Positions 2 through 49,496 of a stretch of DNA of 64,000 nt are shown piece by piece. The translations under genes and the position numbers were made by a program. Source of the stretch: Cytophaga aurantiaca DSM 3654 (lineage in GTDB: Bacteria; Bacteroidota; Bacteroidia; Cytophagales; Cytophagaceae); NCBI RefSeq assembly GCF_000379725.1, contig NZ_KB903632.1:1-64000 (forward strand), read 5' to 3'. The notes beneath the pieces are model-generated. The model saw nothing but the letters and a program-made list of their open reading frames with translations, ran no database searches and was not told where the DNA came from. The number at the start of each line of letters is the position of its first letter. Positions within the stretch are counted from its first letter, which is position 1.

Positions 2-247
2 GTAAGAAAACGAACACATGTATCAAGAAAAGCAAATATGCGTATCAAATCAATATTACACATGGCAGCACTGGTTGCTATTCAATCAAATAAAGAAATT
101 ACAGAATTCTACGATCGTAAAATAAAACAAGGGAAAGCAAAAATGAATGTTATAAACGCTATTCGAAATAAATTAATACATCGTGTATTTGCATGCGTTA
201 GAGATAATAGAAAATATGAATATATTTATACCAATGCACTTGCATAA
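2..247 (+). CDS. IS110-family transposase, C-terminal fragment (runs off left edge)
   Basis: The reading frame is open to the left edge of the window, so only the last ~82 codons are visible. The text around residues IKSILHMAALVAIQ, followed by YDRKIKQGKAKM and NAIRNKLIHRVFACV, is the usual C-terminal end of IS110/IS116/IS902 transposases, in which a helix-hairpin-helix-containing DNA-binding region precedes a short basic tail. The internal ATG at 38 is not a real start. The stop at 245-247 is where such proteins normally end, so the visible part seems intact. Whether the element is complete depends on sequence to the left. Family call is confident; activity unknown. Confidence 0.85.
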   Translation, partial: VRKRTHVSRKANMRIKSILHMAALVAIQSNKEITEFYDRKIKQGKAKMNVINAIRNKLIHRVFACVRDNRKYEYIYTNALA

Positions 248-4298: not shown

Positions 4299-4354
4299 GC
4301 AATAAAAAATGTAGAGGTTCTGTGTCAAGGTAATAAAGTTAGAGCAAATTTATT

Positions 4355-4379: not shown

Positions 4380-4410
4380 GCATAGAACAAAAAGTACACT
4401 TCATCACTTA

Positions 4411-30486: not shown

Positions 30487-30520
30487 AGTTAGTTGCGAGT
30501 TGATTGTTTCTAGTTATCAG

Positions 30521-30585: not shown

Positions 30586-30594
30586 TTCTCTATT

Positions 30595-31149
30595 TCACAT
30601 TGCTAGTACGTAAGGCAGGATCAGATACGTCATGAACAGTCCGCCGATGAAGAAGCCTACTACGGCGATCAATGAATTAACGCTTAGTAATGACAAGCCC
30701 ATGATCGCGTGACCGGATGTACAGCCATTTGCATAACGAGTACCGAAGCCTACTAAGAAACCACCAATGATAATCATGATGAACCCTCTCAGTGTAAATA
30801 ATCCTTCCCACGAGAAAATATCTGCCGGTGCCAATCCATCAAACTGATGAACGCCTTGCTGATTTAAGATCGCATAGGTATCGTCTCCCACACCAACGGT
30901 AGGATTCAAATAGGTATGTGCAACCCATGCACCCGCAACCGTACCAAGGATCAATACCAGATTCCAGATCTCTTTTTTCCAATCGTAATCAAAGAACTTA
31001 ATAGACTTGGGAGCAAACATTGCACAGATGTGCCTGAAGTTTGAAGACACTCCAAATTGTTTGTTTGTTATAAATAATAACAAGGGCACCATCAGTCCTA
31101 GTAAAGGACCCGAAATATACCAGGGCCAGGGTTGAGTTATAAATTCCAT
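30595..31149 (-). CDS. YeeE/YedE-type sulfur transporter, half protein (184 aa)
   Basis: 184 residues with about five membrane segments. Contains the second YeeE/YedE Cys motif, in YANGCTSGHAIMGLSLLS, and an N-terminal GPLLGLMVPLLLF segment. In single-chain homologues this motif and the GACPGP motif lie in one protein; here they are in two genes. Start at 31149 fits the family N-terminus. First gene of the pair on the minus strand. Confidence 0.87.
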   Translation of the reverse strand: MEFITQPWPWYISGPLLGLMVPLLLFITNKQFGVSSNFRHICAMFAPKSIKFFDYDWKKEIWNLVLILGTVAGAWVAHTYLNPTVGVGDDTYAILNQQGVHQFDGLAPADIFSWEGLFTLRGFIMIIIGGFLVGFGTRYANGCTSGHAIMGLSLLSVNSLIAVVGFFIGGLFMTYLILPYVLAM

Positions 31150-31401: not shown

Positions 31402-34400
31402 TTAATGCAACACTACAAACTTCTGTGTCTTGACACCATCGTTGCTATTGCTAATGCGTAAGGTGTAGAAACCATTTGCATAGCTTTGTGTATTGATTGT
31501 AAAGCCATCTGTACCATCCTTCAATGTACCTTGTCCTACTGTTCTGCCAAGCTCATCTACAATTACCCAATTGTATTCTCCTGAAAGTTTACCGTTTAAA
31601 ATAACCGTAGTAAGATCATTCGCCGGATTCGGATACAAGGTCACAGTTGAGCTTACTTCAGTAGGATCGAAGATTGGAGTCGTAACTGTTGAACCCAAAC
31701 CTTTATAAGCCACTTGATAAATTTCTTTTGTAACGTTGTCTTGTACGAAGGCGATCATGGCAAGTTTATTCGGATCATATATTCCCGCATTTGAATAGTC
31801 ACAATCAAAAGTAATCGTAGCGCTACTATTTTTCGCCCATGTAGTTGAAAAACCTGTACCTGCTGCATCCGGAAGAAATTTTGCATGTACCCATTGATAA
31901 TTGGTTTCTCCATTAATACCGGTTACATTACTAACATAACGTTCCAAAACAGATATGTATAATGTCACCGGATTTGAAACAGGAATATTTGCAGTAATAT
32001 TTACTGTTCCAGTGATTGTTGAAGAAGTAAATGTTGGGTCAATTTTAATCTTAAATCCAGGATCTTTTAAAATTGCTTTTATAATTGTTGTATCCTGTAA
32101 AACAGTTGCTGGATGCCCTACAGATTCTGAACCGTTCACAACTGCATAAGGAATAATTGACACCCCATTAAATAATGATCTTGCTCCTGGATCAGCCGTA
32201 TTACGATTATAGAAAGGATCAGGCAATGAGTAACCAACGTGATACTGCAGTCCAACAACATCTAATGGATACTGGTTTATTTTTGAATAAAACATTTCAT
32301 TTTCAACCTTTGTTACCGGATAAGCATTATTGGTAAATTGTTCTATTAATAACATTTTAGTTCTTTCGCCTATCCATATATTGTCAAATGCGAATCCATC
32401 TGAAACATTTTTAGTAGAACCAAAAGCTACCCTAAAACGAATATTTTTATTTGAAGCAATCTCATTGTCTAATGTATAACGCGCATTCTTAAAACCTACG
32501 CTATCCATGTAAGACCATCCATACTGACCGACACTCTGTTCACCTGGATTTCCTGCAATCCCGAAGTCATCATACCAGTTAATCCCTATTCCCTTTTCAT
32601 TTTTCCCTAATGTTTCCCAAACTTTACCATCGTATGAATATTGTAATGCTGCACCATTAAGTTTATCAAGAGTCGCATTCCAGATATCCAATGTAATCAT
32701 GGGACGCGTTAAACTATCCATACTAAAACACGGACTATAAACATAGGACTGCTCAAGTGGTTTATTAGAGCCCGTCAGGCCTGTCACCCAAAAATTATTT
32801 GCAGTTGTTTTAATTACTGATTTAGAAGGCTGTCCCCAAATCCATGTCGATACAGTATCAGCTACACTGCTTGAAACCCAGCCACCACCGTCTGCTTGAA
32901 AATCATTTACATAAGGTGTATTAGGACCCAGCACCTTTGCTGGAAGTATATAAACATTTTGAGAAAGTTTAGCTTTACATTTGTAATCAGACACTGCCTC
33001 TAAAGATACTTCGTAAATACCAGGTCCGCTGAATTGATGGTTTATATTTCCAAACAAAGGATCTGTAACAGTAGATCTGATAATATTTCCTGAAGACGTT
33101 CCATTTGAAAAGTCCCAGCGAATTGTATCAATGTTTCCAACTACAATACTGGATAAATTCTTGAACTGTGTATTTTGCTGATTACAGATTTCATCCCAAG
33201 TAAAGTTTATTTTTGGATATGAGCCTATTGTAATTATTTTCTTTTCTACATTTTGACATCCCTGACTTGTTATTGTTGTATAGTTTATACTATGGCTTCC
33301 TGCAGATAAATTTGTATCTAAATCTTTCTTTATGAAATTTTTAGAATCAATCTCCCAAATCCATTTATTAATTATACTTGAGGAAACACCTGAGCCTGAA
33401 TTAAAAGTAGTAAATGAGTCTCTAAAACGAATAATATCTTTTTCACAAACAGTAGACAAACTAAAGTCTGGTTCAGGCTTACCAAAAACAATTGTAGATA
33501 TCGTTGAATCTTCACTACAACCATTTAAATCCTTAAAAGTATAGGTGATAAAATGCTGTCCTACTCCTGCTAAATCCGGGATAAATTTTGAACCCGCAAT
33601 TGCACTTGAAATAGGATTACTTGAAAATCCTCCAGACAGCCCAGTAGAAGGAAGAGGAAAAGGGTTTAATTCAGCGATCGAATCTTTGTCGCAATACTTA
33701 GGTTTAAGTCCTGTAAAATATACTAATGGCAATGAATTTATAACAACAGTATCGATAATTGAATTGGTACATTGATTCGCATCTTCGTATGTATATTTTA
33801 GATAATATGTATCAGGATTTCCATTTGACGGTAAAAATTTCAATGGTGATTGTTGCAATGGATTTTTTATAATAGATGCTTGCACTTTTGCTGTTATAGA
33901 AACAGCCCCTCCACTTGGAGAACCATTTAAACTTACATCAGAACTACCAAAACAATACGCAGCACTAGTACTGTTATTTGTAAGACCGAACAAATGAACT
34001 TCTGGAAGTTTATTAACTGTTGTTTCAAATGTAAAGCTATTAATACAGCCTTGAGGAGACTGATAAGTATATGTAATTAGATATTTTTTCGAATCTAATT
34101 CAGTATCAGCAAGCTTAGATGGTTTAAATATCGGTTTATTAAGACTATTTGTATCAACAATATTATTGAAATAGCCTTTACCTCCAGCAGGTATTATATT
34201 CGCATTAACTACAATAGTTGCTGGAACTTCGGAGACACAATATGAAGATTTAACTCCTGAAAATCCAACATTTTTAGGAAGTGATAACACCAATGTTGAA
34301 TCAAGAACAGAAACTGTACAACCATAACTATCCGTATATGTTGCATTCATCTTAGCATACGTATTGTCTGGAATATTTTTCGATGAAAATTTATTATTCG

Positions 34401-35994
34401 ACACGCCATCACCAAAAAAACTAATACCACTTCCTGTACGATTTACAGAAGCAGACAATACAACTAAAGAATCTGACTTACAATATTGAGGAGCTAAATT
34501 ATTAATTTTAATGACTGGCTTATCGATTACATATACATATGAAATGGTTTTACCTTTAGTAGGATCAGTAAATACAATCATATAATATGTTCCCAAAACA
34601 GGAGCATTTGACGGCTTAAATGTACCAATTCCATTGTCATTAAACGGATCATAAATCATTAATGATGAATAATCCGCATTAGTAAAATATTCAACGCATG
34701 TATATTTGCCAATACCATTTGGTATTGACATAGTTACATCAGAAGATGTAGGACAATAATAGGTGCCTAATCCGTTTATTACTCCTCCACTTGGCTTAGA
34801 CACATTGATAGTTTTTGTTTTTGTTGCAATACAACCATTGGGAGCTTCTAATGTTCTTGTAATGGTTGATGTTCCTTCCCCAATTACATTTGGATAAAAT
34901 CGAGAAACGCCTAACGAGTTCGTTGAAACTCCATTTCCAGTTACAGTAATTATTCCACCATTAGTTGGATTTGATTGATCCCCTGTAATTAATATTGAAT
35001 CTTCTGTATTGAAATAACTTGCCTCACTAGGGCTAGTTATTGTAACGGATGGAGATTGCAATATTGTTGTTTGCTGAGTATACGAGCCTTGACAACCATT
35101 ATTTGTATAGGTATATGTTACAGATTTATTTGTTCCAACTCCAGCATTAGTTGGATTAAAAAAAGTTGTATTCACAATACCACTACCTGAAAATGTTCCT
35201 CCTGCTGGAAAGCCTGTTAATAAAATTTCCTGATCAGCGCTACAACAGGAGTTGGGCAAACCAAAAAAAGTAACTGACGGAATTGGTTTAACCAAAATAT
35301 GTACAGTATCTGATCCCGGACATCCATTATCTGTAGCAGCATAAGTAATTATATATGAACCTGCTCCTGCCTGACTTGGCTTAAATGTATTTCCTGTTAA
35401 TCCCGAAGATGCTGGAGAAACGGAATAAGAACCTCCATTCGGACTACCGTTTAAATTAATATCCGACCCATTTGAACAAACAATTTTAGCTGTAGCATTA
35501 AGATTTACATATGCGCCGGCACTTGTTACAACAGCATGCACTTTATTATCGCCAGAATTATTTCCAACTTGCATGGCATTACCACTACGAACTAAATTTT
35601 GTGAACCTGAGGGGCTATTTGCTCGTATTTGAATATTACTCAGTACAAATTTGTCTGTAGTTGCAGTAGCATTTATAAAATAAATAAGTGTAATTTTTGA
35701 TGCCGTAACCGTTAATGCAGAAAAAGTAATATCATTCCCGGTAGCAGTAACAGAGCCATTTCCAGGATTAAACTCAAAGTTGGATGGAGCATTGATTTCA
35801 TATGTTTGTACATTCCCTGAAATCGAAAATTCTGTTGCAGCAGATTCTGCAATCGTAATATTTCCAATTGTTGTATAAGTAGTTCCTACACATAAATTAA
35901 AACTCCCACCAGAAGTAACATTAACATTTGCAAGAGTATCCGTTACCAGAACGAATAAACAAGCAAGCACAATATATAGGCGTTTAGAAAACAT
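31402..35994 (-). CDS. Giant secreted protein with Omp28-like domain and T9SS type A sorting domain
   Basis: 1530 residues. A signal peptide (MFSKRLYIVLACLFVLVTDTLA) starts it. Residues ~30-870 contain repeated Ig/SprB-like units with Cys-containing strands of the type ...YCxxS..V.L.G.P.GG.FSG.G; residues ~880-1080 look like PKD domains; ~1085-1210 a beta-sandwich (choice-of-anchor-J-like, ending DGFAFDNIWIGERT). Residues ~1213-1400 (LLIEQFTNNAYPVTK) resemble Omp28-related proteins, with a thioredoxin-like start. The end (~1450-1530, YPNPANDLTTVIL... FVVLH) is a T9SS type A sorting domain. It is the last gene of the six-gene unit. Role as adhesin or surface receptor is inference. Confidence 0.85.
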   Translation of the reverse strand: MFSKRLYIVLACLFVLVTDTLANVNVTSGGSFNLCVGTTYTTIGNITIAESAATEFSISGNVQTYEINAPSNFEFNPGNGSVTATGNDITFSALTVTASKITLIYFINATATTDKFVLSNIQIRANSPSGSQNLVRSGNAMQVGNNSGDNKVHAVVTSAGAYVNLNATAKIVCSNGSDINLNGSPNGGSYSVSPASSGLTGNTFKPSQAGAGSYIITYAATDNGCPGSDTVHILVKPIPSVTFFGLPNSCCSADQEILLTGFPAGGTFSGSGIVNTTFFNPTNAGVGTNKSVTYTYTNNGCQGSYTQQTTILQSPSVTITSPSEASYFNTEDSILITGDQSNPTNGGIITVTGNGVSTNSLGVSRFYPNVIGEGTSTITRTLEAPNGCIATKTKTINVSKPSGGVINGLGTYYCPTSSDVTMSIPNGIGKYTCVEYFTNADYSSLMIYDPFNDNGIGTFKPSNAPVLGTYYMIVFTDPTKGKTISYVYVIDKPVIKINNLAPQYCKSDSLVVLSASVNRTGSGISFFGDGVSNNKFSSKNIPDNTYAKMNATYTDSYGCTVSVLDSTLVLSLPKNVGFSGVKSSYCVSEVPATIVVNANIIPAGGKGYFNNIVDTNSLNKPIFKPSKLADTELDSKKYLITYTYQSPQGCINSFTFETTVNKLPEVHLFGLTNNSTSAAYCFGSSDVSLNGSPSGGAVSITAKVQASIIKNPLQQSPLKFLPSNGNPDTYYLKYTYEDANQCTNSIIDTVVINSLPLVYFTGLKPKYCDKDSIAELNPFPLPSTGLSGGFSSNPISSAIAGSKFIPDLAGVGQHFITYTFKDLNGCSEDSTISTIVFGKPEPDFSLSTVCEKDIIRFRDSFTTFNSGSGVSSSIINKWIWEIDSKNFIKKDLDTNLSAGSHSINYTTITSQGCQNVEKKIITIGSYPKINFTWDEICNQQNTQFKNLSSIVVGNIDTIRWDFSNGTSSGNIIRSTVTDPLFGNINHQFSGPGIYEVSLEAVSDYKCKAKLSQNVYILPAKVLGPNTPYVNDFQADGGGWVSSSVADTVSTWIWGQPSKSVIKTTANNFWVTGLTGSNKPLEQSYVYSPCFSMDSLTRPMITLDIWNATLDKLNGAALQYSYDGKVWETLGKNEKGIGINWYDDFGIAGNPGEQSVGQYGWSYMDSVGFKNARYTLDNEIASNKNIRFRVAFGSTKNVSDGFAFDNIWIGERTKMLLIEQFTNNAYPVTKVENEMFYSKINQYPLDVVGLQYHVGYSLPDPFYNRNTADPGARSLFNGVSIIPYAVVNGSESVGHPATVLQDTTIIKAILKDPGFKIKIDPTFTSSTITGTVNITANIPVSNPVTLYISVLERYVSNVTGINGETNYQWVHAKFLPDAAGTGFSTTWAKNSSATITFDCDYSNAGIYDPNKLAMIAFVQDNVTKEIYQVAYKGLGSTVTTPIFDPTEVSSTVTLYPNPANDLTTVILNGKLSGEYNWVIVDELGRTVGQGTLKDGTDGFTINTQSYANGFYTLRISNSNDGVKTQKFVVLH

Positions 35995-36029
35995 AAGGTC
36001 TTAATATTTTTTATTACAATACATTTAAA

Positions 36030-37271
36030 TTATTTTAATTCTCCGTTTGATGTCAAATGAATTAAAGACATTACACTATTTGATCCTGTTGCATTACCAC
36101 CAAATTGTATAGTAGCAGATACGATAAAACTTCCATCAGCAGTTTGTTTTGCCGAAGCACCATAATCATTGCCGCTTCCTCCGAATTGCTTCGTCCAAAG
36201 AACATTTCCTTGTGAATCCGTGCGCATTACAAGCACATTACTCATACCATTGTCGGCGTCTATTGTTGAGCCTGTAATAATAAATCCACCATCTGCATTT
36301 AGACTAAAATCAGTAGCAATATCATTCCTTGCTGTACCAAATTCTTTATAATAATTTTTAGAAACTGAAGAAGTAGAAATATTTAGTTTCATAATATAAA
36401 TCTCAGAATTGGATGTACTGGTTGTATTCCCCAATACAAAAGCGCTCCCGGGTATTGATAAAATATCTACTGCATTTGCAATATTAGGCTCTACGATTGC
36501 ACCATTTTTATCATAACTTGAAGTAGCATCATACGCGCCATCAATTTTAAGTTTTCCTGTAGTAATAAGTATGTTAGATTGCGATGTAGAAGGTAAATAT
36601 GTTGATGCACTCGTAAGATAAACAGAATCTTTCAGTTGCTGAATTGCAGTCCCAACATTCATAGCGTTATCTACTCCAAAAATTGCTTCCCACTCTTTCG
36701 TAAAAACAGGATCTACTTTTACAAGATACACAGCCGATACTGCTTTTATTGTTTGAGTTGTCGATCCTATTACAATATATCCTTGATCATTTGTCAATAA
36801 TATTTTATTTCCTTTTTCTTTAAAATTTAAATTGCCGTATGTGAATTCCTGATATTGTGTACCATCACTATTCAACTTAACAATCCATACATCTGTACTA
36901 GAAGATGAAGCGCTTTCAGCTTTAGAACCAACAACCACATAACCACCATCAGTAGCAACCTCTATCCAATTCCCCTCATCATCACCTGCACCACCCAATA
37001 CTTTGTTCCATTCTTCGTTTCCGAATTTATCTGTCTTTATAACAAGGATCTGTTTACCGTCACCGTATGAATCCGTAGTACCTACCAAAACGTAACCGCC
37101 ATCGGGAGTCAAGGCTACGTTGCCTGCCTTTTGTGTGCCGCCTTTTCCGTAATATTTAATAAAACTATTTGCCTGTTCGGGTTGAATTTTCTCCTTACGG
37201 CAGCTACCCAACACCAGTGCTACAGATGTTAGTAAAAGAAAAATGGTATATGCCTGTTTCTTATTTTTCAT
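36030..37271 (-). CDS. Repeat lipoprotein, beta-propeller-like
   Basis: 413 residues with a lipoprotein signal ending LLTSVALVLGSCRKEK (Cys near residue 24). The mature part consists of about seven ~50-residue repeats of the type TxDGGYVLVGTTxSxGxGxxxxLVxKxDxxGxxxWxxxxG, as in TPDGGYVLVGTTDSYGDG and NADGGFIITGSTIDAD. These fold as beta propellers in related proteins. It overlaps the preceding outer-membrane gene by 11 bp, so the two are translationally coupled. Probably anchored in the outer membrane; its place between barrel and secreted giant suggests a surface complex. Confidence 0.83.
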   Translation of the reverse strand: MKNKKQAYTIFLLLTSVALVLGSCRKEKIQPEQANSFIKYYGKGGTQKAGNVALTPDGGYVLVGTTDSYGDGKQILVIKTDKFGNEEWNKVLGGAGDDEGNWIEVATDGGYVVVGSKAESASSSSTDVWIVKLNSDGTQYQEFTYGNLNFKEKGNKILLTNDQGYIVIGSTTQTIKAVSAVYLVKVDPVFTKEWEAIFGVDNAMNVGTAIQQLKDSVYLTSASTYLPSTSQSNILITTGKLKIDGAYDATSSYDKNGAIVEPNIANAVDILSIPGSAFVLGNTTSTSNSEIYIMKLNISTSSVSKNYYKEFGTARNDIATDFSLNADGGFIITGSTIDADNGMSNVLVMRTDSQGNVLWTKQFGGSGNDYGASAKQTADGSFIVSATIQFGGNATGSNSVMSLIHLTSNGELK

Positions 37272-38346
37272 GAGTAGGTAATTTTTTAGGCTTGTAGAAT
37301 GATTTGTAATATCCTACAGAAAACATCAGTGAATTCAGTGTGAAGTTATTGTCTATGTATCCGTACTTATAGACCAGATCTGAATTGCTATATTTATTAT
37401 CTGGATTAGAAATATTATTCAACCCATACATATATTTCACATCAAGTACCAAATAGCCGTAGCCGGCTTTGTAACGAATCCCGCCACCACCTACTAAGGA
37501 GTAGTTAAACATGTTGCGCAGGTCGTGTGTATTCACATCCGGACCGATCGCCTGATTGGATTGCGTATTGACATCTTTACGGGTAATGTTGGCTTTTGAA
37601 TTCAGCATCATAGAAACTGCTGCCCCGCCCTGCAGGTAATAGCGCAGCTTCTGCTGCCCCATGGTATACTTCAGCACAACCGGCAGTTCAAGCCACAACT
37701 GAGTTTCCTTTGACACCAGCTCTGTATATTCAAGCAGTGTATTTTTATACTGATACTTTTTAAAGGAAAGTAATAAATCCGTACCTAAGGTGAATTTTTT
37801 ATTCAGATAGATATCTGCATTAAAACCAAATTGCAGGTTCAACAATCCTTTATACTCTCCGGTATTTTCGCCTGTATTGTATACACCATACGGCACAAAG
37901 GAATTGGGTCTGGTGACATTCATTCCCACTTTAAAACCCAATGCATAAATAGGTTTCGTACGATACGAATTAAATAGATTAATAAATTCAGATGGATCAG
38001 TCACCGGATTTACCTGATACTCCGGATCTGTTTTTATCAATTCCAGGAAATACCTATTGGCTTCCTCATCTCTGCCATCAAATAACTTGGAAAGAATAAT
38101 TAACCTGTATGCCTGCAGCTTTTCAAACTTACTGAACCCGTCTTTCTGAATACACGGGAGCAACATTCCTTCAATCGCATCAATGCGGCCAGCTTCATAG
38201 GTTTTCTCAGAATCTCTCAACAACTGTACGCAACGGTTTTCAATTATTGAATCTTTACTTTTATTCTGTGCAAGTATTGTTCCTGAAATCAGGAACAATA
38301 CCATGCAACATAAAAATGTACCAAACGGAGTGAATCTCTTTTTCAT
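37261..38346 (-). CDS. Outer-membrane beta-barrel protein with helical N-terminal region
   Basis: 361 residues with a signal peptide (MKKRFTPFGTFLCCMVLFLISGTILA). Residues ~30-130 are helical (CVQLLRDSEKTYEAGRIDAIEG), like a short TPR-type segment that ends YQVNPVTDPSEFINLFNSYRT. Residues ~135-361 are a PorT-type eight-stranded barrel with alternating residues (LGFKVGMNVTRPNSF, LNLQFGFNADIYLNKKF, GYYKSFYKP). This architecture, helical periplasmic part plus OM barrel, would connect periplasm and surface. It follows the STAND gene by 12 bp on the same strand, and it overlaps the downstream lipoprotein gene. Confidence 0.8.
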   Translation of the reverse strand: MKKRFTPFGTFLCCMVLFLISGTILAQNKSKDSIIENRCVQLLRDSEKTYEAGRIDAIEGMLLPCIQKDGFSKFEKLQAYRLIILSKLFDGRDEEANRYFLELIKTDPEYQVNPVTDPSEFINLFNSYRTKPIYALGFKVGMNVTRPNSFVPYGVYNTGENTGEYKGLLNLQFGFNADIYLNKKFTLGTDLLLSFKKYQYKNTLLEYTELVSKETQLWLELPVVLKYTMGQQKLRYYLQGGAAVSMMLNSKANITRKDVNTQSNQAIGPDVNTHDLRNMFNYSLVGGGGIRYKAGYGYLVLDVKYMYGLNNISNPDNKYSNSDLVYKYGYIDNNFTLNSLMFSVGYYKSFYKPKKLPTHEK

Positions 38347-38358
38347 CTTCCTCTCTCC

Positions 38359-41300
38359 TTAATATATTTTTTCCATATTACTTTCCTGACTTGGCAATTC
38401 CGGACACGTTAGCTCGTATGGAACACCTTCTTTTGCTACATATCGTTTCCACTCTGCTCCTGTCATGTTGCGTTTCAATAAACCACACATTTGCTCCGCC
38501 ATAACCTTACTGCTTGTTGGCCATACACGAATGAGGTTATCACCGCAGCCTGCAATAAGTTTATCGCCATCCGGACTGAAACACATAGACCATACCCAGT
38601 TGCTGTGATCTTTTAATACCAACGGCTGTTCGCTCAACTCCGAAAGATCCCACACACGTATGGTTCCATCAAAACTAGCAGATGCTAATTTAGAATCGTC
38701 TTTACTGAATTGCATTTCATTCACACGTGCTTTGTGCCCAGGTAATGCTACAACCAAACGTTTGCCTTCAACATCCATAATTTTAATCACACCTAAATTA
38801 TTAGCGATGGCTAAGAATTCTCCGTCGTGACTATATACCAAACTGTACACTGCACTTGTACTTTTATCAATGGAATAGGATTTGAATTCATTGTACAAGG
38901 ATACAATTGTAGTTTCGCCAAGATCATTTGACACAGCAACAATACGTCCCTTCGGATGTACTGAAACTGCTTTAATGTTTGATTTGTCGCGGTATACAGT
39001 CGTTGATTTCCCTGTAGCAAGATCCCATAGGATCACTGTACTATCCGCACTTGCTGAAACCAGTGCAGTACCATCTGAAGTAAAGCCGGTAAAGAATACA
39101 TTCTTTTTATGTCCGCCGAGTATCACAGGCTGTGCTTCGGGTTTTGACGGATTAATAATACGAACATTTGTTGTTGCTCCGCCCAATGCGAGATATTGAT
39201 TGCTTGGACTGATTGACAATCCAGCAAATGAGAAGGTGTTGTAATAAACGAGCGTTGGTTTCGGATTCATACTTCCAACGTCCCACTTAAAGATTTTCCC
39301 GTCGGAACCAGCTGTATAAATTGTTTTTCCATCTTCAGAATAGACAACGGATTTCACTGCATCTTTGTGACCATGCAATGCATTGTATTCAGAAGGTTTT
39401 AAATCTTTCAATGCATAATACAATCCGTCATAGATCTCGTGCTGATTCACATTTCCGCCATTCTTATCATAAAATCCGAAGGCCTGAAATGCCAGCAATC
39501 CCTTACGCATCGAATCATCTTCGATCTGTACCGAACGCACAGCCATAGATTGCGCAATAGACAATAAACGCAATTTATCCGCCCGTTCTTTTTCGGCATT
39601 TGCAGTACGCTCGTTGGCGATTGCCAGCTCGCTCTGCATCTCAGCAATTTTCTGCTGCTTGGTTGCTTCTGCAGCAAACTTTACTGCAATATTCCGTTGC
39701 TTCTGTGCTTCATCGAAGTTTTTCTCAGCTATATCCTGCTGATGTTTTGCTTCATCCGCAGCAATAACGGCTAATTCTTTCTGACGTTCTGCTTCTTTTG
39801 TTTGCTCTACAGCTATCACTTGTTGCGATTTGGCAAAAGCTTCATTCTGTTCCGCTTTTGCTTTTTGCAACAACGCTTCAGCTCGCTGCTGATCTGCTTC
39901 AACCATTTTTAATATAGAGAACACCAATGATCCTAAGGCCATGATGGTAAAGATGCCCAAAACCAATGCTACAGTACGCGCACGTTTCAACGCTTGCTTC
40001 TGTGCAAGTTCTTTTAAGCGTTGTTCTTCTTCATGTGCTTCATTACTGGTATCCAAAAACACCATTGCACGTTCAAAGGCAGAATCATAACGCTGTGCCC
40101 AAACTAAGGTCGGTTGATTTTTCTGTTTCCAGTTTAAAGCCAATTGCAGATCGGGTGGCCTCCATAAACCTGCTTTACCTATCTGGTAACTGGATGCTGC
40201 ATCCGATAAACGTATGTACATCTGTGCAGACTCACCTTCTTCTTCTACCCATTTTTTTAAACGGGTCCAGATGCGCATCAAACTCTCGTGTGAGATATCT
40301 ATGATACTGTCTGAATCAAGAGCGATATGCACAGGCGGCATTAATAACGAACGGCCTTCTATTCTGAAGTGATCGACTATGAGAGCCATATCGTCTTCAC
40401 TGCAGCCAGCTACTTTTGCTATTGTTGACAGTTTGGTAGGTCTGCGGATACCTGCCGAATCAGAACCTTTCTCTGTTAAGGTTTTAAATAATATTTCACA
40501 ATAGAATTTCTGCTGTTCGGTAAGTTCATCGTACGCTTCATCGGCGTGCTGAGACAAGGCACCGGACATTGAGCCAATGGCTTCGTAATGTCTTAGATCT
40601 AAAACTTCATTGGGTTCGTGATTCTCTGCCCAGAACGTCCAGGTACGCATCAAGGCGTGCTGTATGATCGGCAGCTGATCGGGATTGTCTCCTAGATCAT
40701 TTAACAACTGCTGAACCAAACGCGAAGATATTTCTGCGCCACCCACCGCAACTGGCCCTTCGATTGCCAAACGTTTCTGTTCGCGCACCATTTGCGGAAT
40801 CAGATAGTGACTCTCATTGATGTATTTAGTAAGCTCAGGGAACTGTGCGCAATCGCCAATAAAGTCGGAGCGCATGGTAAGCACTACATAGATATTTGAC
40901 TTTAGATCTTTCACCGCTTCCATCAATAAATTGATGTAGGCTAATGATTCATTGGCTGAATTTGTGTCTTCGCTTCTTTTAAAACGAAACAGTTCTTCAA
41001 ACTGATCGGCTACAATTAATATATTGTGCCCGTTATCCAGATGCAATTGTTTTACCGCCTCTATTAAACCCAGCGATGAACTTTTAAGTAACGTTGAAGT
41101 AATTGTCTTCTTTAATTGCTTGTCGTCATTGTCTGCAACCAGATAACTTCCATCTTTTTGAAGCAAGGCTTCTGAAAGATTATCGATCGGACTACCTCCC
41201 GGACGTGTTGTAATTACATGCCAGTTCGGGCCAATGTGTGATAAGAAACCACCGTATAAAATCGGGATAACTCCGCAAAACATAAACGAAGATTTACCAC

Positions 41301-41493
41301 TGCCTGACGCACCGATAATCCCAACAAATTTATTTTTTGAAAGTTTATCTAAGACTTCATCGCTTTGGCCTTCTCTGCCAAAGAATAAATGACTTTCATC
41401 TACGTGAAAAGCACGCAACCCTGGAAATGGATTTTGCTTTGCACGCGTGAGTCCAATGTGTTCTTGATCGATAAGATGTAGAAAATCGCTCAT
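38359..41493 (-). CDS. STAND-type NTPase with membrane segment and WD40 repeats
   Basis: 1044 residues. Starts with the NPFPGLRAF and LFFGRE motifs of novel STAND NTPases; Walker A GASGSGKSS (residues 61-69), Walker B ILIVADQFEELF (158-169), arginine-rich sensor region MRSDFIGDC. A helical domain follows to ~505. A membrane segment (~507-530, VALVLGIFTIMALGSLVF) precedes a long coiled coil (~531-660, repeated AEAxKQQxIAExQ). WD40 repeats occupy ~700-1020 (KSVVYSEDGKTIYTAGSDGKIFKWD, ASADSTVILWD, ASFDGTIRVWD). STAND proteins are signal-responsive ATP switches. The TIR-like gene is 4 bp upstream. This places sensor and switch together; the ligand is unknown. Confidence 0.9.
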   Translation of the reverse strand: MSDFLHLIDQEHIGLTRAKQNPFPGLRAFHVDESHLFFGREGQSDEVLDKLSKNKFVGIIGASGSGKSSFMFCGVIPILYGGFLSHIGPNWHVITTRPGGSPIDNLSEALLQKDGSYLVADNDDKQLKKTITSTLLKSSSLGLIEAVKQLHLDNGHNILIVADQFEELFRFKRSEDTNSANESLAYINLLMEAVKDLKSNIYVVLTMRSDFIGDCAQFPELTKYINESHYLIPQMVREQKRLAIEGPVAVGGAEISSRLVQQLLNDLGDNPDQLPIIQHALMRTWTFWAENHEPNEVLDLRHYEAIGSMSGALSQHADEAYDELTEQQKFYCEILFKTLTEKGSDSAGIRRPTKLSTIAKVAGCSEDDMALIVDHFRIEGRSLLMPPVHIALDSDSIIDISHESLMRIWTRLKKWVEEEGESAQMYIRLSDAASSYQIGKAGLWRPPDLQLALNWKQKNQPTLVWAQRYDSAFERAMVFLDTSNEAHEEEQRLKELAQKQALKRARTVALVLGIFTIMALGSLVFSILKMVEADQQRAEALLQKAKAEQNEAFAKSQQVIAVEQTKEAERQKELAVIAADEAKHQQDIAEKNFDEAQKQRNIAVKFAAEATKQQKIAEMQSELAIANERTANAEKERADKLRLLSIAQSMAVRSVQIEDDSMRKGLLAFQAFGFYDKNGGNVNQHEIYDGLYYALKDLKPSEYNALHGHKDAVKSVVYSEDGKTIYTAGSDGKIFKWDVGSMNPKPTLVYYNTFSFAGLSISPSNQYLALGGATTNVRIINPSKPEAQPVILGGHKKNVFFTGFTSDGTALVSASADSTVILWDLATGKSTTVYRDKSNIKAVSVHPKGRIVAVSNDLGETTIVSLYNEFKSYSIDKSTSAVYSLVYSHDGEFLAIANNLGVIKIMDVEGKRLVVALPGHKARVNEMQFSKDDSKLASASFDGTIRVWDLSELSEQPLVLKDHSNWVWSMCFSPDGDKLIAGCGDNLIRVWPTSSKVMAEQMCGLLKRNMTGAEWKRYVAKEGVPYELTCPELPSQESNMEKIY

Positions 41494-41497
41494 ACTC

Positions 41498-43003
41498 TTA
41501 TACCGTTATTTGTTTCAGAAATGGGTGAATAATCTCTTTCTCAAAACTTCCTGATGTACCACGAATAATTGAGAAATTATATTGATTGTAATATCCTGTA
41601 TCGATTGGTTTATCTGTAGTCAAATAAATTGCCTTACCAATCATATTTTTCTTTCTTCCGAATCCAGGCGCCTTCAATATATCCAGCACCTTACTTTTTA
41701 GCCATTGTTCAGAAACCTGATCGCAAAAAACCAGACACGAATCACAGGCATTTAAATTATTGCGATGTCTTGAACGAACCTCCATAATGTCTCCTTCAAA
41801 CATTGGAAGCAATACATCAAAGCCGTTTTGTTTTAGATGATTTACAATTGGCTGGCATTTATTCATATCAATGGCATCTACAATCACATAGATATTTTTA
41901 CCTGTATTCGATGACAATTCTGCATCCGGTATAAAATAACTGTGTCCCTTTTCATCTTTGATCGAAGCAAGTTCTCGCTTGATCAACGATTTAAATTCTT
42001 CTATCGGAATTTTTAATACCTCTGCACCATTCATAGATTCTGTGCTGCTTACAAATGATTCCATCAACAGTTGCTGCTTATCGTCCGCGAAATTTATTTC
42101 CTGCGGAATCCATATCAATCTTCTGAATGGCGCACTGCCTTTCTTATTATTGCTGTAGTCAACTGCAATATGATTTTGAAGTTTCATTAACCGAACCTCT
42201 TCCCGTTGATCGTATTCCTCATCAATAAAAGAAGCGCCCATCAAATGAATGGATAGTTTACATTTATCCAGATCGGCTTTAATAGCATCGATGGTTTCAG
42301 GTGCATCTAAAGAAAGTACTTTATCCGGCAATACATGGTATCCATGTCTTTCCAATTCGCGACGAATGATATTTTTCTGTATCAATAGATCATTGCCTGT
42401 TTCTGCCAGATATACACATTCATCCGGCATGGCATCTACAGTCTTATGTTTATTCTCACTACCGATCGCTTGAGGTTGATTGTAGTAAATAACCTTATAT
42501 ATATCATACGCCAAATCTACGAGGCGCATCCAGTATGTCTTCTCTGCATCCTGTCCGAAAAAGGCATTAAACTCTTTCATCAATCCGGTAAAGGGATCGT
42601 ACATGAATAAATCATAGCTCACCATTTCACGCAACAGCGGATGATATTTTTCAGGTTCTACAAAAGATTTAGATGCCTTAAACATTCTAAGCTTACCGTC
42701 GATGCGCATATTCATCGGATTATTCATCAACTGACGTAAATATTCTGCTTCTTTGATGAACTCTCCTGAAACAATGTATTCCGGAGAAACCAGGTAAATT
42801 ACCACACAGGCTTTTTCAAAAGGATTAAAACCTGGTTCCGTCACTTCTTGACTTGTTATAATCTTAGGATGATGCTGAAGCAGTTGAGATATTAATGTGT
42901 CCAGGAATTTTTTAAAATTATCTACCCAGCCAGCATCATAGCCTGAAAGCTTTTCATTATCCTTTTCAGTATAACTTAAAAATATGTCGTATTCAAAAGC
43001 CAT
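41498..43003 (-). CDS. Protein with three tandem TIR-like domains
   Basis: 501 residues with no signal peptide. Domain 1 (~1-150) opens EYDIFLSYTEKD, the hallmark of TIR domains; the segment LVSPEYIVSGEFIKEAEYL matches the region of the catalytic Glu, here about Glu85. Domain 2 (~188-360) begins CVYLAETGNDLLIQKNIIRREL and has KCKLSIHLMGASF, like TIR/DUF4062-type domains next to STAND proteins. Domain 3 (~366-500) begins NIYVIVDAID and has CDSCLVFCDQVSEQWLKSK. Domain boundaries are my estimates. TIR domains act as NADases, cyclic-ADP-ribose synthases or protein adaptors. Only domain 1 looks able to be catalytic. Transcribed between the cNMP-binding membrane protein and the STAND NTPase. Confidence 0.82.
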   Translation of the reverse strand: MAFEYDIFLSYTEKDNEKLSGYDAGWVDNFKKFLDTLISQLLQHHPKIITSQEVTEPGFNPFEKACVVIYLVSPEYIVSGEFIKEAEYLRQLMNNPMNMRIDGKLRMFKASKSFVEPEKYHPLLREMVSYDLFMYDPFTGLMKEFNAFFGQDAEKTYWMRLVDLAYDIYKVIYYNQPQAIGSENKHKTVDAMPDECVYLAETGNDLLIQKNIIRRELERHGYHVLPDKVLSLDAPETIDAIKADLDKCKLSIHLMGASFIDEEYDQREEVRLMKLQNHIAVDYSNNKKGSAPFRRLIWIPQEINFADDKQQLLMESFVSSTESMNGAEVLKIPIEEFKSLIKRELASIKDEKGHSYFIPDAELSSNTGKNIYVIVDAIDMNKCQPIVNHLKQNGFDVLLPMFEGDIMEVRSRHRNNLNACDSCLVFCDQVSEQWLKSKVLDILKAPGFGRKKNMIGKAIYLTTDKPIDTGYYNQYNFSIIRGTSGSFEKEIIHPFLKQITV

Positions 43004-43016
43004 TTCGTTTTTTGCT

Positions 43017-46000
43017 TTATTTAACTACTAGTTCGTTTTTATTATATGCTTCTTCCAGCTCCTTGTTCAATGCAGGAATTACTGCGCGAGACAATACATA
43101 ATAACTGGAAACAATGTCGAAGAAACGATCTTTATCAATTTTAAATAAGATCGTATCTACAGCTGCTGCAACAGTAAAATTCATTACATCTGTATCCAGA
43201 ATTAATTCATCTCCCAATAAATATTTTGATCCATATTCGCCTTCAACAGTACCATCGGCATTAAAGAGTGATATCATTCCTGAATAAACTATAACCACAG
43301 GATGTGAGCCATTTAAACTATTCTGAAATAAGACTTCTCCTGCTTTAAGATTTACTTCTTCAATATGGTCTGCCATAATTGCCAGCAATCCACCGGAAAT
43401 ATTTGAAAATACAGGTATTGATTTCAAGAAGATAATTTTCGAAAACAGAAGCGATTTCCATTGAGTAGCTTTAGTAGAAAAAATCAATGCATCCAGTTCT
43501 TTTCTATGTCTCTCTGAAATTCGCAGACTAAGTGTTTGATACGTTACAGGAGCAATGGTATAAATAACATGTGCGGTAATTTCACGAATTAATTTATCCG
43601 GATTGAACAAATTTGCTACCAGCGTATCCGTTACTTTTATATCCTTCAAGGATAGTAACTTATTGATGGCACAGGCTTTTGTCCATCGGTTAATTTCATT
43701 GTAATCTTTATTGATCAGATGAAACAAAATTGTTTTTTCATCATATGATTCCCTTGGAAAATGCACCTGCAATTTTTCAATTTTCTCGGTTAAAGAGATC
43801 TGATCTAAAAGAGGAACCAACATTGGTTTTAACTCATCATCAATAAATACATCCAGCAATTCAATCGCATACAGAACCCCTTCAACCGTTCGGCTCTTAA
43901 TATTTTCTTCTACTAATTTCACTGAAGCCTGATGATATATGAGAGACAATAACATGAAAATATTTTCATCGTTCTCTTCTATCTCTTCTAATAAAGCCTG
44001 ATATAAAGGTGTTGGGTTTGTATGTTCCTTGATCTCATCTAAGGCTGCAATCTTCCATGCACATAAAGCAATTTCCTGCATCAGCAATTGTTTGATCTTA
44101 CTTGCACGTTCTCCTTTCGCAATGTATGCCAGATTCCTTAGAGCAAGTAACGCTTCTGAAACAACTTTACGATCCGGATAATTGATCTTATTCCACAATA
44201 CTTCAATGGCTTTATCTCCACCGATTTTAGAATACACCTGAATGATTCGTATTTTAGTTTGAAGATTCTGACCTGTTTTGTAAAATGCCAGGTCGAGTGT
44301 AGGTATCACTTTCTCTCCAATATATTGCAGACCTGAAGATGCTACATTCGCAAAACTCGGCAGAGATAAATTCTCTATCAGCAACATCCAATACTGTGTG
44401 AGTTTAATCGTACCTGCAGTCAACAAGGCTGACTTACGAACACGTGGATTTGATTCACGAAGTAAATCAAAAAGCTGACGTGCCATTTCTTCATTAAAAT
44501 TATTTCGGATCAGCTTTACAGCTAATTCTTTATCAACCGGATTTTTAGAGCGCGATAGTTTTACAATATTATCAGAAGAAGAAACCATTTTTTCAACTTC
44601 ATTCAAATTGGCTAAAGCATGCTCTGCCAAAGCTTTTGTTTCAATGGAGGTATCTGCTCTACCTATAATACCTTTTAAATTATCTGTTGCTGAAAGCAAC
44701 TTTATATCTTCAATCTTTTTAAATACATAGTTTCGTACACGCACAGATGGATGATTGGTATATGAATACACTGTTTTTTCCAGCAGTGCGGGATCCAATC
44801 GCTCTGTCATTTTAAGCGTATTGATAATACGTGTTGCATTATCCGTTTTCATCTCCTGTAACAGAATTGCTTGTACAGATTTATCGTTGCTATCATCTAA
44901 CAGATCTAAGTCGCCTCGTTGTGTAGTAAGCGTATCCTGAAGAGTTGAACGGTATTCAGTATACAGTTTAATGATCACATAGGCATAGATGCATGTCGCA
45001 ATAATGAGGGCAACACTAAAATAGATCAACTGAAACGACAGTACTCCAAACAGAATAAGGAAGCCTGCGGCAACTACTACAGCAAACTGCCGGAATACAC
45101 CTTCTACTTTAGTCTGAACATCGTGTCGGATTTTTGAATTGATGGGTAAGAAAAAGTTTTTATAAATGGGTTCTTCAAAAGATTCGATACAGGTTTGCAA
45201 AAAAATCTTACTCAAACAAACGAAAATGAAGAAGAGAATAAATGTTTCATTGATACCAAGCAAGGCATCATACTTCGTATCGCCAAAAAAACCGCCAACC
45301 AAAGCCGTGAGAATAGAAAAAACTCCGAGCAATACCGGTAAAATAAATAAAGACAATTTAACACCTATTGTGCTAATGATGCGATCTGCGCCTACCAATT
45401 GAAAGATCATATTGAACAGTGTCAATACTGTTCCATAACCCGCAAGAAAGTTCGCTAAATCAATATCATTTATATATACACGTCCGTCTTCGCTCACTTC
45501 CCTATAGGCTTCCAAACCTGCAGAAAAAAAAGAGAATTCCATAAACTGTAAAATGATAACCGACACCAAAGATAACTGAGCCAGTAAACGGATATACTTA
45601 TTATTAAACAACTGCTTGATATCCGGAGATGCTTCCAGTTCTGCTTTTTTATTTATAGTAACAAGCTTTTCGTTTGAATGCTGACTAATGAAAAGCTGAT
45701 ACAATAAAAATGATAGAACCATTGCCCCTACACTAAAATAGAAGTAATCCACAACAGGTACATCCGATGGAATAAGGAATACAACGAAAAAGGCAATAAC
45801 CGTTGCAAACATTTGTCCCTGATCTACTGTACCCGTTAATCGCTTTTCATTTCGTAAGTTGAATGAGCGTCCGATAATGCCGTAAAAACAGAGTAAGGTT
45901 AAGGCGTTAATACTTCCCAAACTGGCAAATACCAGATAACGCAACTTATGTATTTCTGGAAAAGTTTGTAGTAAATACGTAAAAACAACGATGGTGATTA

Positions 46001-46286
46001 ATACTAATATTAATGTAATTCGTGCTAATCGCGAGAACGGAATTCGTTTTTGAAAGTATGCAAAGATCAATGTTGAAAAAACTCCTAATAAACCGGAAAA
46101 TAAAAAGGCCTCAGAGATCCTCTTTTGATCGTAAACCTCAAGAAACATGGTACTGGATCCAATGTCATAGGTTACGATACTTATCCCCAAAAAAAATGAA
46201 AAAGACAATAATAACAGCACAGGTTTTAATTCTCCCGGCTCTATATCTAGAAGCTTGTTTAAATACTTTTTAAAAAACTTTTTCAT
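43017..46286 (-). CDS. NTT/MFS-like membrane protein with HEAT repeats and cyclic-nucleotide-binding domain
   Basis: 1089 residues. Residues ~18-460 contain about 12 membrane helices resembling ATP/ADP-translocase (NTT/TLC) or MFS proteins (VLLLLSFSFFLGISIVTYDI). Residues ~475-900 are helical HEAT-like repeats (NPRVRKSALLTAGTIKL, HPSVRVRNYVFKKI, DRKVVSEALLALRNLA). The C-terminal ~960-1075 is a cNMP-binding beta-roll: FSNISGGLLAIMADHIEEVNLKAGEVLFQ and GSKYLLGDELILD, though the phosphate-binding cassette is divergent. Homologues of this fusion exist in free-living Bacteroidota. Whether it transports nucleotides or works as a membrane receptor is unknown. It is the first gene of the six-gene unit, with 13 bp to the TIR gene. 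Confidence 0.83.
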   Translation of the reverse strand: MKKFFKKYLNKLLDIEPGELKPVLLLLSFSFFLGISIVTYDIGSSTMFLEVYDQKRISEAFLFSGLLGVFSTLIFAYFQKRIPFSRLARITLILVLITIVVFTYLLQTFPEIHKLRYLVFASLGSINALTLLCFYGIIGRSFNLRNEKRLTGTVDQGQMFATVIAFFVVFLIPSDVPVVDYFYFSVGAMVLSFLLYQLFISQHSNEKLVTINKKAELEASPDIKQLFNNKYIRLLAQLSLVSVIILQFMEFSFFSAGLEAYREVSEDGRVYINDIDLANFLAGYGTVLTLFNMIFQLVGADRIISTIGVKLSLFILPVLLGVFSILTALVGGFFGDTKYDALLGINETFILFFIFVCLSKIFLQTCIESFEEPIYKNFFLPINSKIRHDVQTKVEGVFRQFAVVVAAGFLILFGVLSFQLIYFSVALIIATCIYAYVIIKLYTEYRSTLQDTLTTQRGDLDLLDDSNDKSVQAILLQEMKTDNATRIINTLKMTERLDPALLEKTVYSYTNHPSVRVRNYVFKKIEDIKLLSATDNLKGIIGRADTSIETKALAEHALANLNEVEKMVSSSDNIVKLSRSKNPVDKELAVKLIRNNFNEEMARQLFDLLRESNPRVRKSALLTAGTIKLTQYWMLLIENLSLPSFANVASSGLQYIGEKVIPTLDLAFYKTGQNLQTKIRIIQVYSKIGGDKAIEVLWNKINYPDRKVVSEALLALRNLAYIAKGERASKIKQLLMQEIALCAWKIAALDEIKEHTNPTPLYQALLEEIEENDENIFMLLSLIYHQASVKLVEENIKSRTVEGVLYAIELLDVFIDDELKPMLVPLLDQISLTEKIEKLQVHFPRESYDEKTILFHLINKDYNEINRWTKACAINKLLSLKDIKVTDTLVANLFNPDKLIREITAHVIYTIAPVTYQTLSLRISERHRKELDALIFSTKATQWKSLLFSKIIFLKSIPVFSNISGGLLAIMADHIEEVNLKAGEVLFQNSLNGSHPVVIVYSGMISLFNADGTVEGEYGSKYLLGDELILDTDVMNFTVAAAVDTILFKIDKDRFFDIVSSYYVLSRAVIPALNKELEEAYNKNELVVK

Positions 46287-46595: not shown

Positions 46596-49496
46596 TTAAT
46601 TCGCCATTTCAGCTTCTGCAAACTCTTCAGTTGGTATACAGCTGCAGAATAAGTTACGATCTCCATAAGCACTATCAATTCTGCTAACTGAAGGCCAGAA
46701 TTTCGTTGTCTTCAAATAAGGCAGCGGATATGCGGCTTTTTGTCTTGAGTACGAACGTGTCCATGCATCTGCTGTAATAACACTTGCTGTATGCGGTGCA
46801 TGTTTCAATACGTTATCCAATTTATCTGCTTTGCCGTTTTCTATTTCTGCTATTTCAGCACGGATCGAGATCATTGCATCGCAAAAACGATCCAACTCAT
46901 GCATCGATTCACTTTCCGTAGGTTCGATCATTAAGGTTCCTGCAACGGGGAATGAAACGGTTGGTGCATGGAAACCATAATCCATCAAACGTTTCGCAAT
47001 GTCTTCTACTTCAATTCCGATCGTAGTTTTAAATGCTCTGCAATCCAAAATAAATTCGTGCGCGCAATGACCATTTGTACCTGTATATAAGATCGGATAG
47101 TGCTTCTCTAACCGGGCTTTGATATAATTTGCATTTAGAATGGCATTTTTTGTTGCATTCGTCAAACCTTCTGAACCCATCATTGCAATGTATGCATACG
47201 ATATCGGAAGAATGCTTGCACTTCCCCATGGCGCAGCAGAAACAGCATGAATAGCTTTTGCACCACCTGTTTTAACAACAGCATGCCCCGGAAGGAAAGG
47301 TTTTAAATGTGCTGCAACACCAATCGGACCAACACCCGGACCGCCACCACCGTGAGGGATACAGAATGTTTTATGCAAATTCAGATGGCATACATCCGCA
47401 CCGATACTGCCCGGAGAAGTTAAACCTACCTGCGCATTCATATTGGCACCATCCATGTATACTTGTCCGCCGTGCTTATGAATCGTTTCGCAGATCTCAA
47501 TGATCGTTTCTTCAAACACACCATGTGTAGATGGATACGTAACCATCAGACAGGATAGATTTTTACTATGTTGTTCTGCTTTCGCTTTTAAATCTGCTAC
47601 ATCAATATTACCTGCATCATCACACTTCACAAGTACAACCTGCATCGCAGCCATTACAGCACTTGCCGGATTGGTACCGTGTGCAGAAGTCGGGATCAAT
47701 GCAATGTTACGGTGTGTATCGCCTCTGCTTTCGTGGTATGCACGAATCACTAATAAACCTGCATACTCCCCTTGCGCGCCGGAGTTCGGCTGAACAGAAA
47801 CACCTGCAAAACCCGTAATTTCAGATAACCAGGATTCAATGTTATCAAATAAACGATGATACCCTTTCACCTGCTCTGCCGGAACAAATGGATGTATCTG
47901 TCCTACTTCCGGCCAGGTAACCGGAATCATCTCCGTTGTGGCATTCAACTTCATGGTACAAGAACCCAATGAAATCATTGAATGTGTAAGCGATAGATCT
48001 TTATTTTCTAATTGTTTTAAATAACGTAACATCTCATGTTCCGTATGGTATGTATTAAATACCGCGTGTGTCATGAATGATGATGTACGAGCTAATTCTT
48101 TAGGAAGAGATGCTTCAACTTGTAAATATTTAGCAACAAGATCAGTTGAAGAAACTGTTTTACCGGACACTTCTACAAATACTTCTACAAGATTTTTCAG
48201 ATCCGCTACAGTTACAGATTCATCCAGTGCGATAATAACTTCTTCGCCTTCGTAACGCAGATTGATCTGACGTTTTTCTGCCGCTACTTTTATTACTGAA
48301 CCTTTGGTATGTACATTCAATGATAGCGTATCAAAATATGCCGCATTCAATTGTTCAAAACCTAATTCTTTTAAGATCGAAGTTAATGCAGTTGCAAAGC
48401 CATGTACGCGCGACGCAATCTGTTTCAAACCTTGTGGACCATGATACACAGCATACGATGCCGCGATCACTGATAATAATACCTGAGCGGTACAAATGTT
48501 TGAAGTCGCTTTCTCTCTGCGTATGTGTTGTTCGCGTGTCTGTAACGACATACGATATGCTTTTTTACCTTCGGCATCGATGGATACACCAATGATACGT
48601 CCCGGCAATTGACGTTTGTATTCTTCTTTCGTTGCAAAGAACCCTGCATGCGGACCGCCAAAGCCCATAGGCACACCAAAACGTTGTGAAGAACCAAACA
48701 CAACATCCGCGCCCATTTCACCCGGGGATTTAATAAGTGTTAAACTTAATAAGTCTGAACCGAATGCTACCAATGCATCGCCTGCATGAATCTTAGAGAT
48801 CAAGCTTGTATAATCTGCAACTTGTCCATCGCAATCCGGTGATTGAAGCAATGCACCGAAAATGTCGTTGCGTGTATAATCTACTGTTGTTGGATCAACA
48901 ATTTCCAACTTAATACCAAGTGGTTCTGAACGTGTTTTCAATACATCCAGTGTCTGAGGAAATGTGAATGGAGATACAACAAATGTCTGTGCATCTTTCT
49001 TCGCACCTTTACGCAAGCTATGGATCAAGGTCATTGCCTCTGCTGCTGCTGTTGCTTCGTCCAATAAAGACGCATTCGCGATCTCCATACCTGTAAGATC
49101 ACATACCATTGTCTGGTAATTGATCAAGGCTTCCAAACGGCCTTGTGCGATCTCAGCCTGATAGGGTGTATACGCAGTGTACCAACCCGGATTTTCTAAT
49201 ATATTTCTTAAAATAACCGTTGGCGTGAGCGTATTGTAATAGCCCAAACCAATATATGTTTTGTAAATCTGATTTTGAGAAACTATTTTTTTGAATTCTA
49301 CTAAAAACTCTTCTTCACTTAAAGGCTTAGGTAATTGCAAAGGCTTCGCAAGACGAATATTTGCAGGCACGGTTTCATTAATCAATTGGTCTAATGAACC
49401 GACACCGATTGCTGTCAGCATAGCTTCTTTTTCTGAAGCGGATGTACCAATATGTCTTTCCTGGAAGGTACCTCTTTGGGTCAAATCTATTTTCAT
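46596..49496 (-). CDS. gcvP: Glycine dehydrogenase (decarboxylating), P-protein
   Basis: 966 residues, full length for a single-chain P-protein of the glycine cleavage system. Begins with [17 protein letters not shown], the typical start. The N-terminal half (to ~470) and C-terminal half are the two related aminotransferase-fold domains. The pyridoxal-phosphate Lys is in [21 protein letters not shown]... (about residue 707), and [17 protein letters not shown] marks the second half. It decarboxylates glycine and passes the aminomethyl group to GcvH lipoate; GcvT and GcvH are not here. Transcribed alone, with a terminator behind it, and divergent from the M28 peptidase gene. Confidence 0.97.

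Follow-up and report, generated by a model that had tools for sequence, protein, structure and literature searches.

Six adjacent genes, here named A to F, lie on the minus strand of a 64,000-nucleotide stretch of Cytophaga aurantiaca DSM 3654 (contig NZ_KB903632.1, positions 1 to 64,000; hereafter the window), and we interpret them, with a probability of about one half, as a signal relay that spans the cell envelope and is built on a STAND switch. F, a giant protein predicted to be displayed by the type IX secretion system (T9SS), and E, probably a surface-exposed lipoprotein, would face outside and sense or bind something, and D would pass the signal through its small closed barrel across the outer membrane to its own periplasmic TPR domain. 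The WD40 propeller of C, placed in the periplasm on a linker apparently long enough to span it, would read D (or part of E or F), and the change would travel via the transmembrane (TM) helix of C to its cytoplasmic STAND NTPase, which would switch its nucleotide state and oligomerise. The TIR-like protein B would act mainly as a cytoplasmic scaffold assembled by the STAND switch, and the membrane protein A as a membrane-bound output or modulator. An earlier sequence-only reading of this DNA had proposed one unit reaching from the cytoplasm to the cell surface, and this architecture is supported by the predicted chain from F and E, through D and the WD40 part of C, to the cytoplasmic NTPase and B, with A in the membrane.

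The evidence that we count for the relay comprises the short gaps and kept order of the genes, the uniform topology of C, the model of D with its TPR and barrel parts, the T9SS tails of the large proteins, the frequent proximity of C and D outside the order and, in one locus (L044), a HAMP-SpoIIE phosphatase gene inserted between A and B (3436-5388; Pfam). The outer partner can apparently vary, since the same A-B-C-D set also adjoins genes of contractile injection systems (CIS). Known STAND switches raise the alarm from within the cytoplasm, in immunity and cell death, whereas here the sensor half is predicted to lie between the membranes, beside an outer-membrane protein. If this is true, the unit would be an outside-to-inside relay that is neither of the TonB/extracytoplasmic function (ECF) sigma kind nor a two-component system, and also a candidate for the trigger of docking, firing or release in contractile injection systems.

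Domain make-up and predicted topology

The central protein of the proposed relay, C, had been described as a membrane STAND NTPase with WD40 repeats, and this was confirmed by matches to nSTAND1 (3e-94, 317.2 bits, cut-off 27.1) and WD40. Among 106 homologues, regular expressions found Walker A in 98 and Walker B in 103. In all 106 a TM helix falls within residues 400 to 700 and is preceded by more Lys/Arg than follow it, and in 101 of them it is the sole predicted one; because of this mid-protein helix and its positive-inside charge, the NTPase is predicted to be cytoplasmic and the WD40 propeller periplasmic. The helical linker that follows the TM helix has a median length of 147 residues, its first 140 contain a median of 1 Gly/Pro, and by simple arithmetic it would measure about 22 nm as one straight helix.

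The claim that D is an outer-membrane barrel was likewise borne out, both by a match to OMP_b-brl_2 and by a structural model (predicted local distance difference test, pLDDT, 91) that comprises a TPR domain and a small barrel like those of OmpA and OmpW (Z 16-17), eight-stranded by our reading. From this model D looks like a small closed barrel rather than a channel; the TPR match, at Z 9.8, falls short of the tool's recommended threshold of 13 for helical repeats. E carries the lipobox of the repeat lipoprotein it had been taken for, together with matches to delta-60 and SBBP-propeller lipoproteins, both sub-threshold. A simple pattern finds the lipobox in 65 of 91 homologues, and acidic residues occupy position +4 in 42% and +5 in 46% of them (Cys = +1) against a background of 12%, a pattern that resembles the surface-export signal of Bacteroidota lipoproteins, so E is probably exposed on the surface.

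For F, announced as a giant, Omp28-like T9SS protein, the secretion part stood, with matches to Por_Secre_tail and PKD and with the C-terminal sorting domain TIGR04183 at 39.2 bits (cut-off 23), typical of T9SS type A cargo, while Omp28 remained sub-threshold (20.8, cut-off 34.9). The conserved C-terminal third of F matches 27 of 30 large open reading frames (ORFs), and the N-terminal repeats vary. Among large ORFs that follow E in 31 loci of our choice, a T9SS-like tail was recognized by eye in 28 of the 29 complete ones, the lone tail-less exception (in G048; genomes, loci and families are given our own G, L and f numbers) being kinase-like by sequence. Por_Secre_tail was found in 10 of 10 large ORFs scanned, with sub-threshold Omp28 in six of these ten.

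On the cytoplasmic side, the triple TIR-like make-up of B was upheld by a model (pLDDT 81) whose three segments have structural matches at Z about 11-13, although the only sequence family match is a sub-threshold one to TIR_2 (24.9, cut-off 28). TIR structures are matched with Z up to 12.9, 11.5 and 12.7 by segments 1, 2 and 3, respectively; domain 1 is closest to the TIRs of TLR/MyD88, while segment 2 has its best matches in CMP N-glycosidases (Z 12.7), ahead of TIR proteins. The Foldseek ranking for the whole B model was set aside, its top entries being long, poorly superposed Rossmann matches; VIA-align resolved the individual domains. We counted the catalytic Glu in domains 1 and 2, at a position tentatively assigned from the motif S-x-x-C-x-x-E. 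It is Glu in 9 of 115 homologues in domain 1, and in 15 of 115 in domain 2 with two neighbouring positions allowed. These counts lend little support to B as an NAD-cleaving TIR protein, yet the window's own B is one of the nine, with Glu85.

Gene A had been read as an NTT-HEAT-cNMP protein, and all three parts were recovered, HEAT_2 and cNMP as domains and NTT by profile: the family alignment matches solved ADP,ATP carriers (9j3n, 3.8e-21; chloroplastic 9j3j, 1.1e-20). There are 11 predicted TM helices in the window protein, and 12 is the commonest count among homologues. Of 25 members searched singly, 24 match HEAT_2, 17 match cNMP at E <= 0.01 (structures of cGMP-dependent protein kinase, PKG, were also matched) and two match TLC, the window's A not being one of the two; its cNMP match, at 27.4 bits, falls 0.1 bit below the cut-off of 27.5. 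A tentative pattern for the phosphate-binding cassette, G-E-x-A...R-x-A, used without a positive control, occurs in 0 of 94 homologues. The cNMP fold of A thus appears degenerate, its usual cassette motif being absent, which speaks against the cyclic-nucleotide role suggested for it earlier.

Layout and recurrence of the gene set

The six ORFs were found at the coordinates given before (Table 1), and their gaps of 13, 4, 12, -11 and 35 bp were confirmed. Because terminator-like stems, the two longest of the stretch, stand on the minus strand before A and after F, and because the D and E ORFs share an overlap of 11 bp, one transcript from A to F is the natural reading of the sequence. The stretch has 10 terminator-like sites, where shuffles give 8.6 +/- 2.7; a weak one on the minus strand lies within F (33922), and a promoter scan of the stretch was uninformative (60 sites against 58.7 in shuffles). 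The DNA downstream of the unit forms blocks collinear with the congener G062 at 72-84% identity, and the chromosomal place of the unit is common to both genomes. Past the unit, at 30076-31149, the window encodes a pair of small membrane proteins, of 136 and 184 aa, and ORFs of the same sizes occur past the unit in G062.

Table 1. Features of the six-gene unit and its borders in the window
Feature	Position	Strand	Description
Gene A	43017..46286	-	1089 aa; NTT/TLC-like membrane domain, HEAT repeats, cNMP-binding fold
Gene B	41498..43003	-	501 aa; three TIR-like domains (1-176, 195-352, 367-501), no TM helix
Gene C	38359..41493	-	1044 aa; nSTAND1 NTPase, TM helix (510-528), long helical linker, WD40 propeller
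Gene D	37261..38346	-	361 aa; N-terminus resembling a signal peptide, TPR-like helices (27-126), outer-membrane barrel of OmpA/OmpW-like form
Gene E	36030..37271	-	413 aa; lipoprotein (LGSC lipobox), delta-60/SBBP-propeller-like repeats
Gene F	31402..35994	-	1530 aa; N-terminus resembling a signal peptide, repeats that vary and include PKD, C-terminal third kept among homologues, type A T9SS tail
Terminator-like stem-loop	31342..31377	-	16 pairs, directly past F
Terminator-like stem-loop	46529..46565	-	15 pairs, between A and the upstream gene
Gene upstream of A	46596-49496		gcvP, from our reading of the ORF

Of 148 genomes of the order Cytophagales, 37 gave a match to B, spread over 12 numbered families. 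In the 43 B-matching loci other than the window's own (the order set), with gene order counted within -60..60, B is followed by C in 38, by D in 36, by E in 29 and by another ORF, of at least 900 aa, in 21, one of which (L033) is kinase-like and hence not F; A is directly upstream of B in 27 and one gene away in 5. Given these counts, the gene order is kept far beyond chance. The incomplete loci are of mixed kinds: some run into a contig end, some adjoin contractile genes, and some lack E or a giant. ORFs similar in size to the HAMP-SpoIIE gene of L044 were seen in L051, L054 and L069.

A second collection, the named set, consists of the best 80 of 158 relatives, reduced to 75 by dropping L091, L096, L111, L116 and L138, which lie on the same contigs as order-set loci. 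By construction it leans to close relatives, and its large ORFs are mostly cut at the locus end, with their tails outside the view. The best 80 are mostly labelled Cytophagales, Cyclobacteriaceae, Flammeovirgaceae or Bacteroidetes; their isolates include Fulvivirga, Marinoscillum, Ekhidna and Chryseotalea, and one metagenome-assembled genome is labelled Chitinophaga and one Bacteroides. The full series of A, B, C, D, E and a large ORF is present in 51 of the 75 loci, with median gaps of 22, 4, 3, -1 and 30 bp, and 15 of the other 24 end at contig or locus limits. The same six-gene order therefore recurs across families of the order, and the first three genes do not occur mostly apart from the last three. 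In the Marinoscillum/Ekhidna and related records L087, L112, L113, L118, L142 and L147, an additional D-like ORF, shorter at 269-287 aa, lies shortly upstream of A.

Sets beside contractile injection genes and outside the order

A wider search with D found sets that adjoin genes for sheath, tube, CIS_tube, gp25, Baseplate_J, injector OB/hub (VgrG-like), PAAR and Pvc16. In eight genomes from five genera and four families (G004, G056, G130, G089, G142, G047, G102 and G141, the last without a B match), the distance from C to a sheath or CIS_tube gene is at most 2-19 kb, values that are upper bounds, as not every sheath match was entered. In G056 (L065:2314-19888) one strand carries A, B, C, D, E, an M23/LysM peptidase gene, a 947-aa ORF with no family match, sheath, tube, a tail-tube-like ORF and CIS_tube, with mostly small gaps, the largest of about 180 bp. 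M23-type genes deserve mention also elsewhere: one lies between C and D in L195 (8979-9584), and a like-sized ORF stands near D in L193 (11068-11676), each a possible wall-remodelling partner.

In a quick, midpoint-rooted tree of 52 C proteins (L070 left out, L045 dropped for its split C, named-set loci not used), the eight CIS-linked copies form one clade with L073, L064 and L198 (Shimodaira-Hasegawa-like approximate likelihood ratio test, SH-aLRT, 100). All copies found to have contractile injection genes within 20 kb belong to this clade, which sits among copies linked to T9SS giants; the window's C is outside it. Any direction of the switch between the two kinds of C would be a tentative reading of a tree with a midpoint root, in which moreover L195 and L198, paired with each other, are both on long branches. 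L064 stops inside D at a contig end, and fits the CIS linkage, because the rest of D and contractile genes open another contig of the same genome; L073 is cut at a contig end about 1 kb past D, and the contractile genes of L198 are on another contig. The two associations are not exclusive: E and a gene of the giant type are present as well in L195 and L049, both of the CIS clade. Family f18 has loci where D and a homologue of A, but no C, occur near contractile genes (L189, checked with Pfam; L190 and L191, by the same layout). The linkage is local only: dependence of the set on contractile systems at the genome level was rejected, as these were present in 14 of 37 genomes with B and 29 of 111 without it (Fisher p 0.21). 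A binomial value of 6e-8 for the linkage is disregarded, because it sets 5 linked genera against 14, which is a number of genomes, and includes the genus of G141, where B has no match.

Beyond the order, the B profile matched 15 of 395 genomes of the phylum, four of them in the order and the rest mostly partial, with a near-full-length match in G242 (3-482 of 486) beside a C-like gene. The D profile at 1e-5 matched at least 121 of the 148 order genomes, mostly generic barrels aligned over the barrel half only, while at 1e-30 it picked out D with its TPR domain in 25 of 375 genomes of the class, 21 of them outside the order. Eighteen of these, taken as 20 regions (G712, G716 and G770 not included), show C and D close together on one strand in 13 of the 20 loci, by our reading, and tandem copies of D and E are common. 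C and D, often with E, look like an old core, to which A, B and F may have been added or from which they may have been lost. A broader proposal, which we hold to be possible but rather doubtful, is that C and D form the core of a family of STAND receptors coupled to the outer membrane, wide in the class and plugged into T9SS giants and contractile systems, serving at the latter as a docking or trigger complex.

Several further arrangements stand on their own. L245, L246, L252 and L254, from other families of the class, combine tandem D with 3-6 E-type ORFs, as if surface sensors had multiplied. A recurrent series in f19 and f43 (L206-L209, L211, L212) consists of a B-like TIR protein, a pair of nSTAND-WD40-like proteins (about 1350 aa each) and an ORF of 267-278 aa. 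In L220, the genes after C encode, in order, a protein of 891 aa whose N-terminus is of the D type, a homologue of A and a Y_Y_Y/HATPase protein of 1237 aa.

Competing explanations and known systems

Several points weigh against the relay. The contact between C and D is supposed, and the length of the linker was judged from sequence alone; among the six gene products there is neither a transcription factor nor a clear enzyme output. The set is patchy in the order: the search of its genomes found no B in a 99%-complete congener, A is not adjacent in 10 of the 43 order loci and E is missing in others, and B was undetected in the A-C-D-E-giant sets L185-L188 and L200, although four of these genomes hold a full set elsewhere. 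Outside the order, 7 of the 20 loci are D-E arrays without C.

The neighbourhood of contractile genes would also suit a structural role, in which A to D tie a surface device, be it a T9SS giant or a contractile system, to the inner membrane and cytoplasm, and the STAND protein controls assembly or firing instead of sensing. One clade of the set does adjoin such genes and the predicted parts span both membranes, but 23 of the 37 genomes with B, including that of the window (no sheath and no CIS_tube match), have neither a CIS_tube nor a sheath match, and D looks like a small barrel, not a channel, so we consider this role unlikely. It is distinctly unlikely that D and E, with C as energy source, help to export, anchor or assemble F on the surface, in the manner of SprF/PorP-type proteins, the partners of giant T9SS adhesins. 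The adjacency of E to giants and the tails of the latter agree with such biogenesis, but C-D sets occur without a neighbouring giant, type A tails normally need no dedicated barrel, and A and B would be left unexplained.

Conflict systems characteristically use domains of the STAND, TIR and nucleotide-signalling kinds (PMC7159879, PMC10907252), and the unit might accordingly sense infection through its STAND protein and harm the cell through its TIR and NTT proteins. We hold this to be very unlikely, even after raising our estimate slightly because the window's B has Glu at the catalytic position of domain 1: this residue and the cassette of A are rare or absent among the homologues, as described above, and the flanks are collinear with those of G062, with which the chromosomal place is shared. 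A known anti-phage defence system was rejected, as PADLOC models gave only weak matches over short stretches (SIR2 0.019, mad3 0.0014, mad8 0.0028).

The suggestion that the system is undescribed agrees with our finding no description of it in open papers, a scope outside which most subscription papers and all bioRxiv preprints fall; open papers under the locus-tag prefixes of C. hutchinsonii were likewise searched for, and none was found. The sister sets beside contractile genes, if they act as membrane partners, would resemble CisA, a membrane protein needed for the firing of a Streptomyces contractile system (PMC12237407); their predicted two-membrane architecture would set them apart from it, and the window's own genome has no CIS match. 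Algoriphagus AlgoCIS provides a contractile system in a member of the Cytophagales, with a cluster of 18 ORFs among which, as far as the accessible description goes, genes like A to D are not named (PMC8894135). With ATP/ADP translocases of the NTT type with a HEAT extension, A shares its profile match to solved carriers and its HEAT repeats, but it differs in its fusion to a cNMP fold that lacks the cassette pattern and in its place within a signalling-like operon. B carries the fold of TIR-domain NADases and adaptors three times, with domain 1 nearest to the TIRs of TLR/MyD88, but most of its family lack Glu at the presumed catalytic position in the two domains considered, and its domain 2 is nearest to CMP N-glycosidases. 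C combines nSTAND1 with a WD40 propeller, as do STAND NTPases with WD40 sensors (of the APAF-1 type, and nSTAND1 conflict proteins), but it has a TM helix between the two in all homologues, its sensor is predicted to be periplasmic and a gene for an outer-membrane protein is usually adjacent. Finally, the T9SS component PG1058, made up of TPR, WD40 and OmpA-like domains, resembles the unit in tying periplasmic TPR and WD40 parts to the outer membrane, but it does so in a single protein, whereas in the unit these parts would be split between an inner-membrane STAND protein and an outer-membrane barrel.

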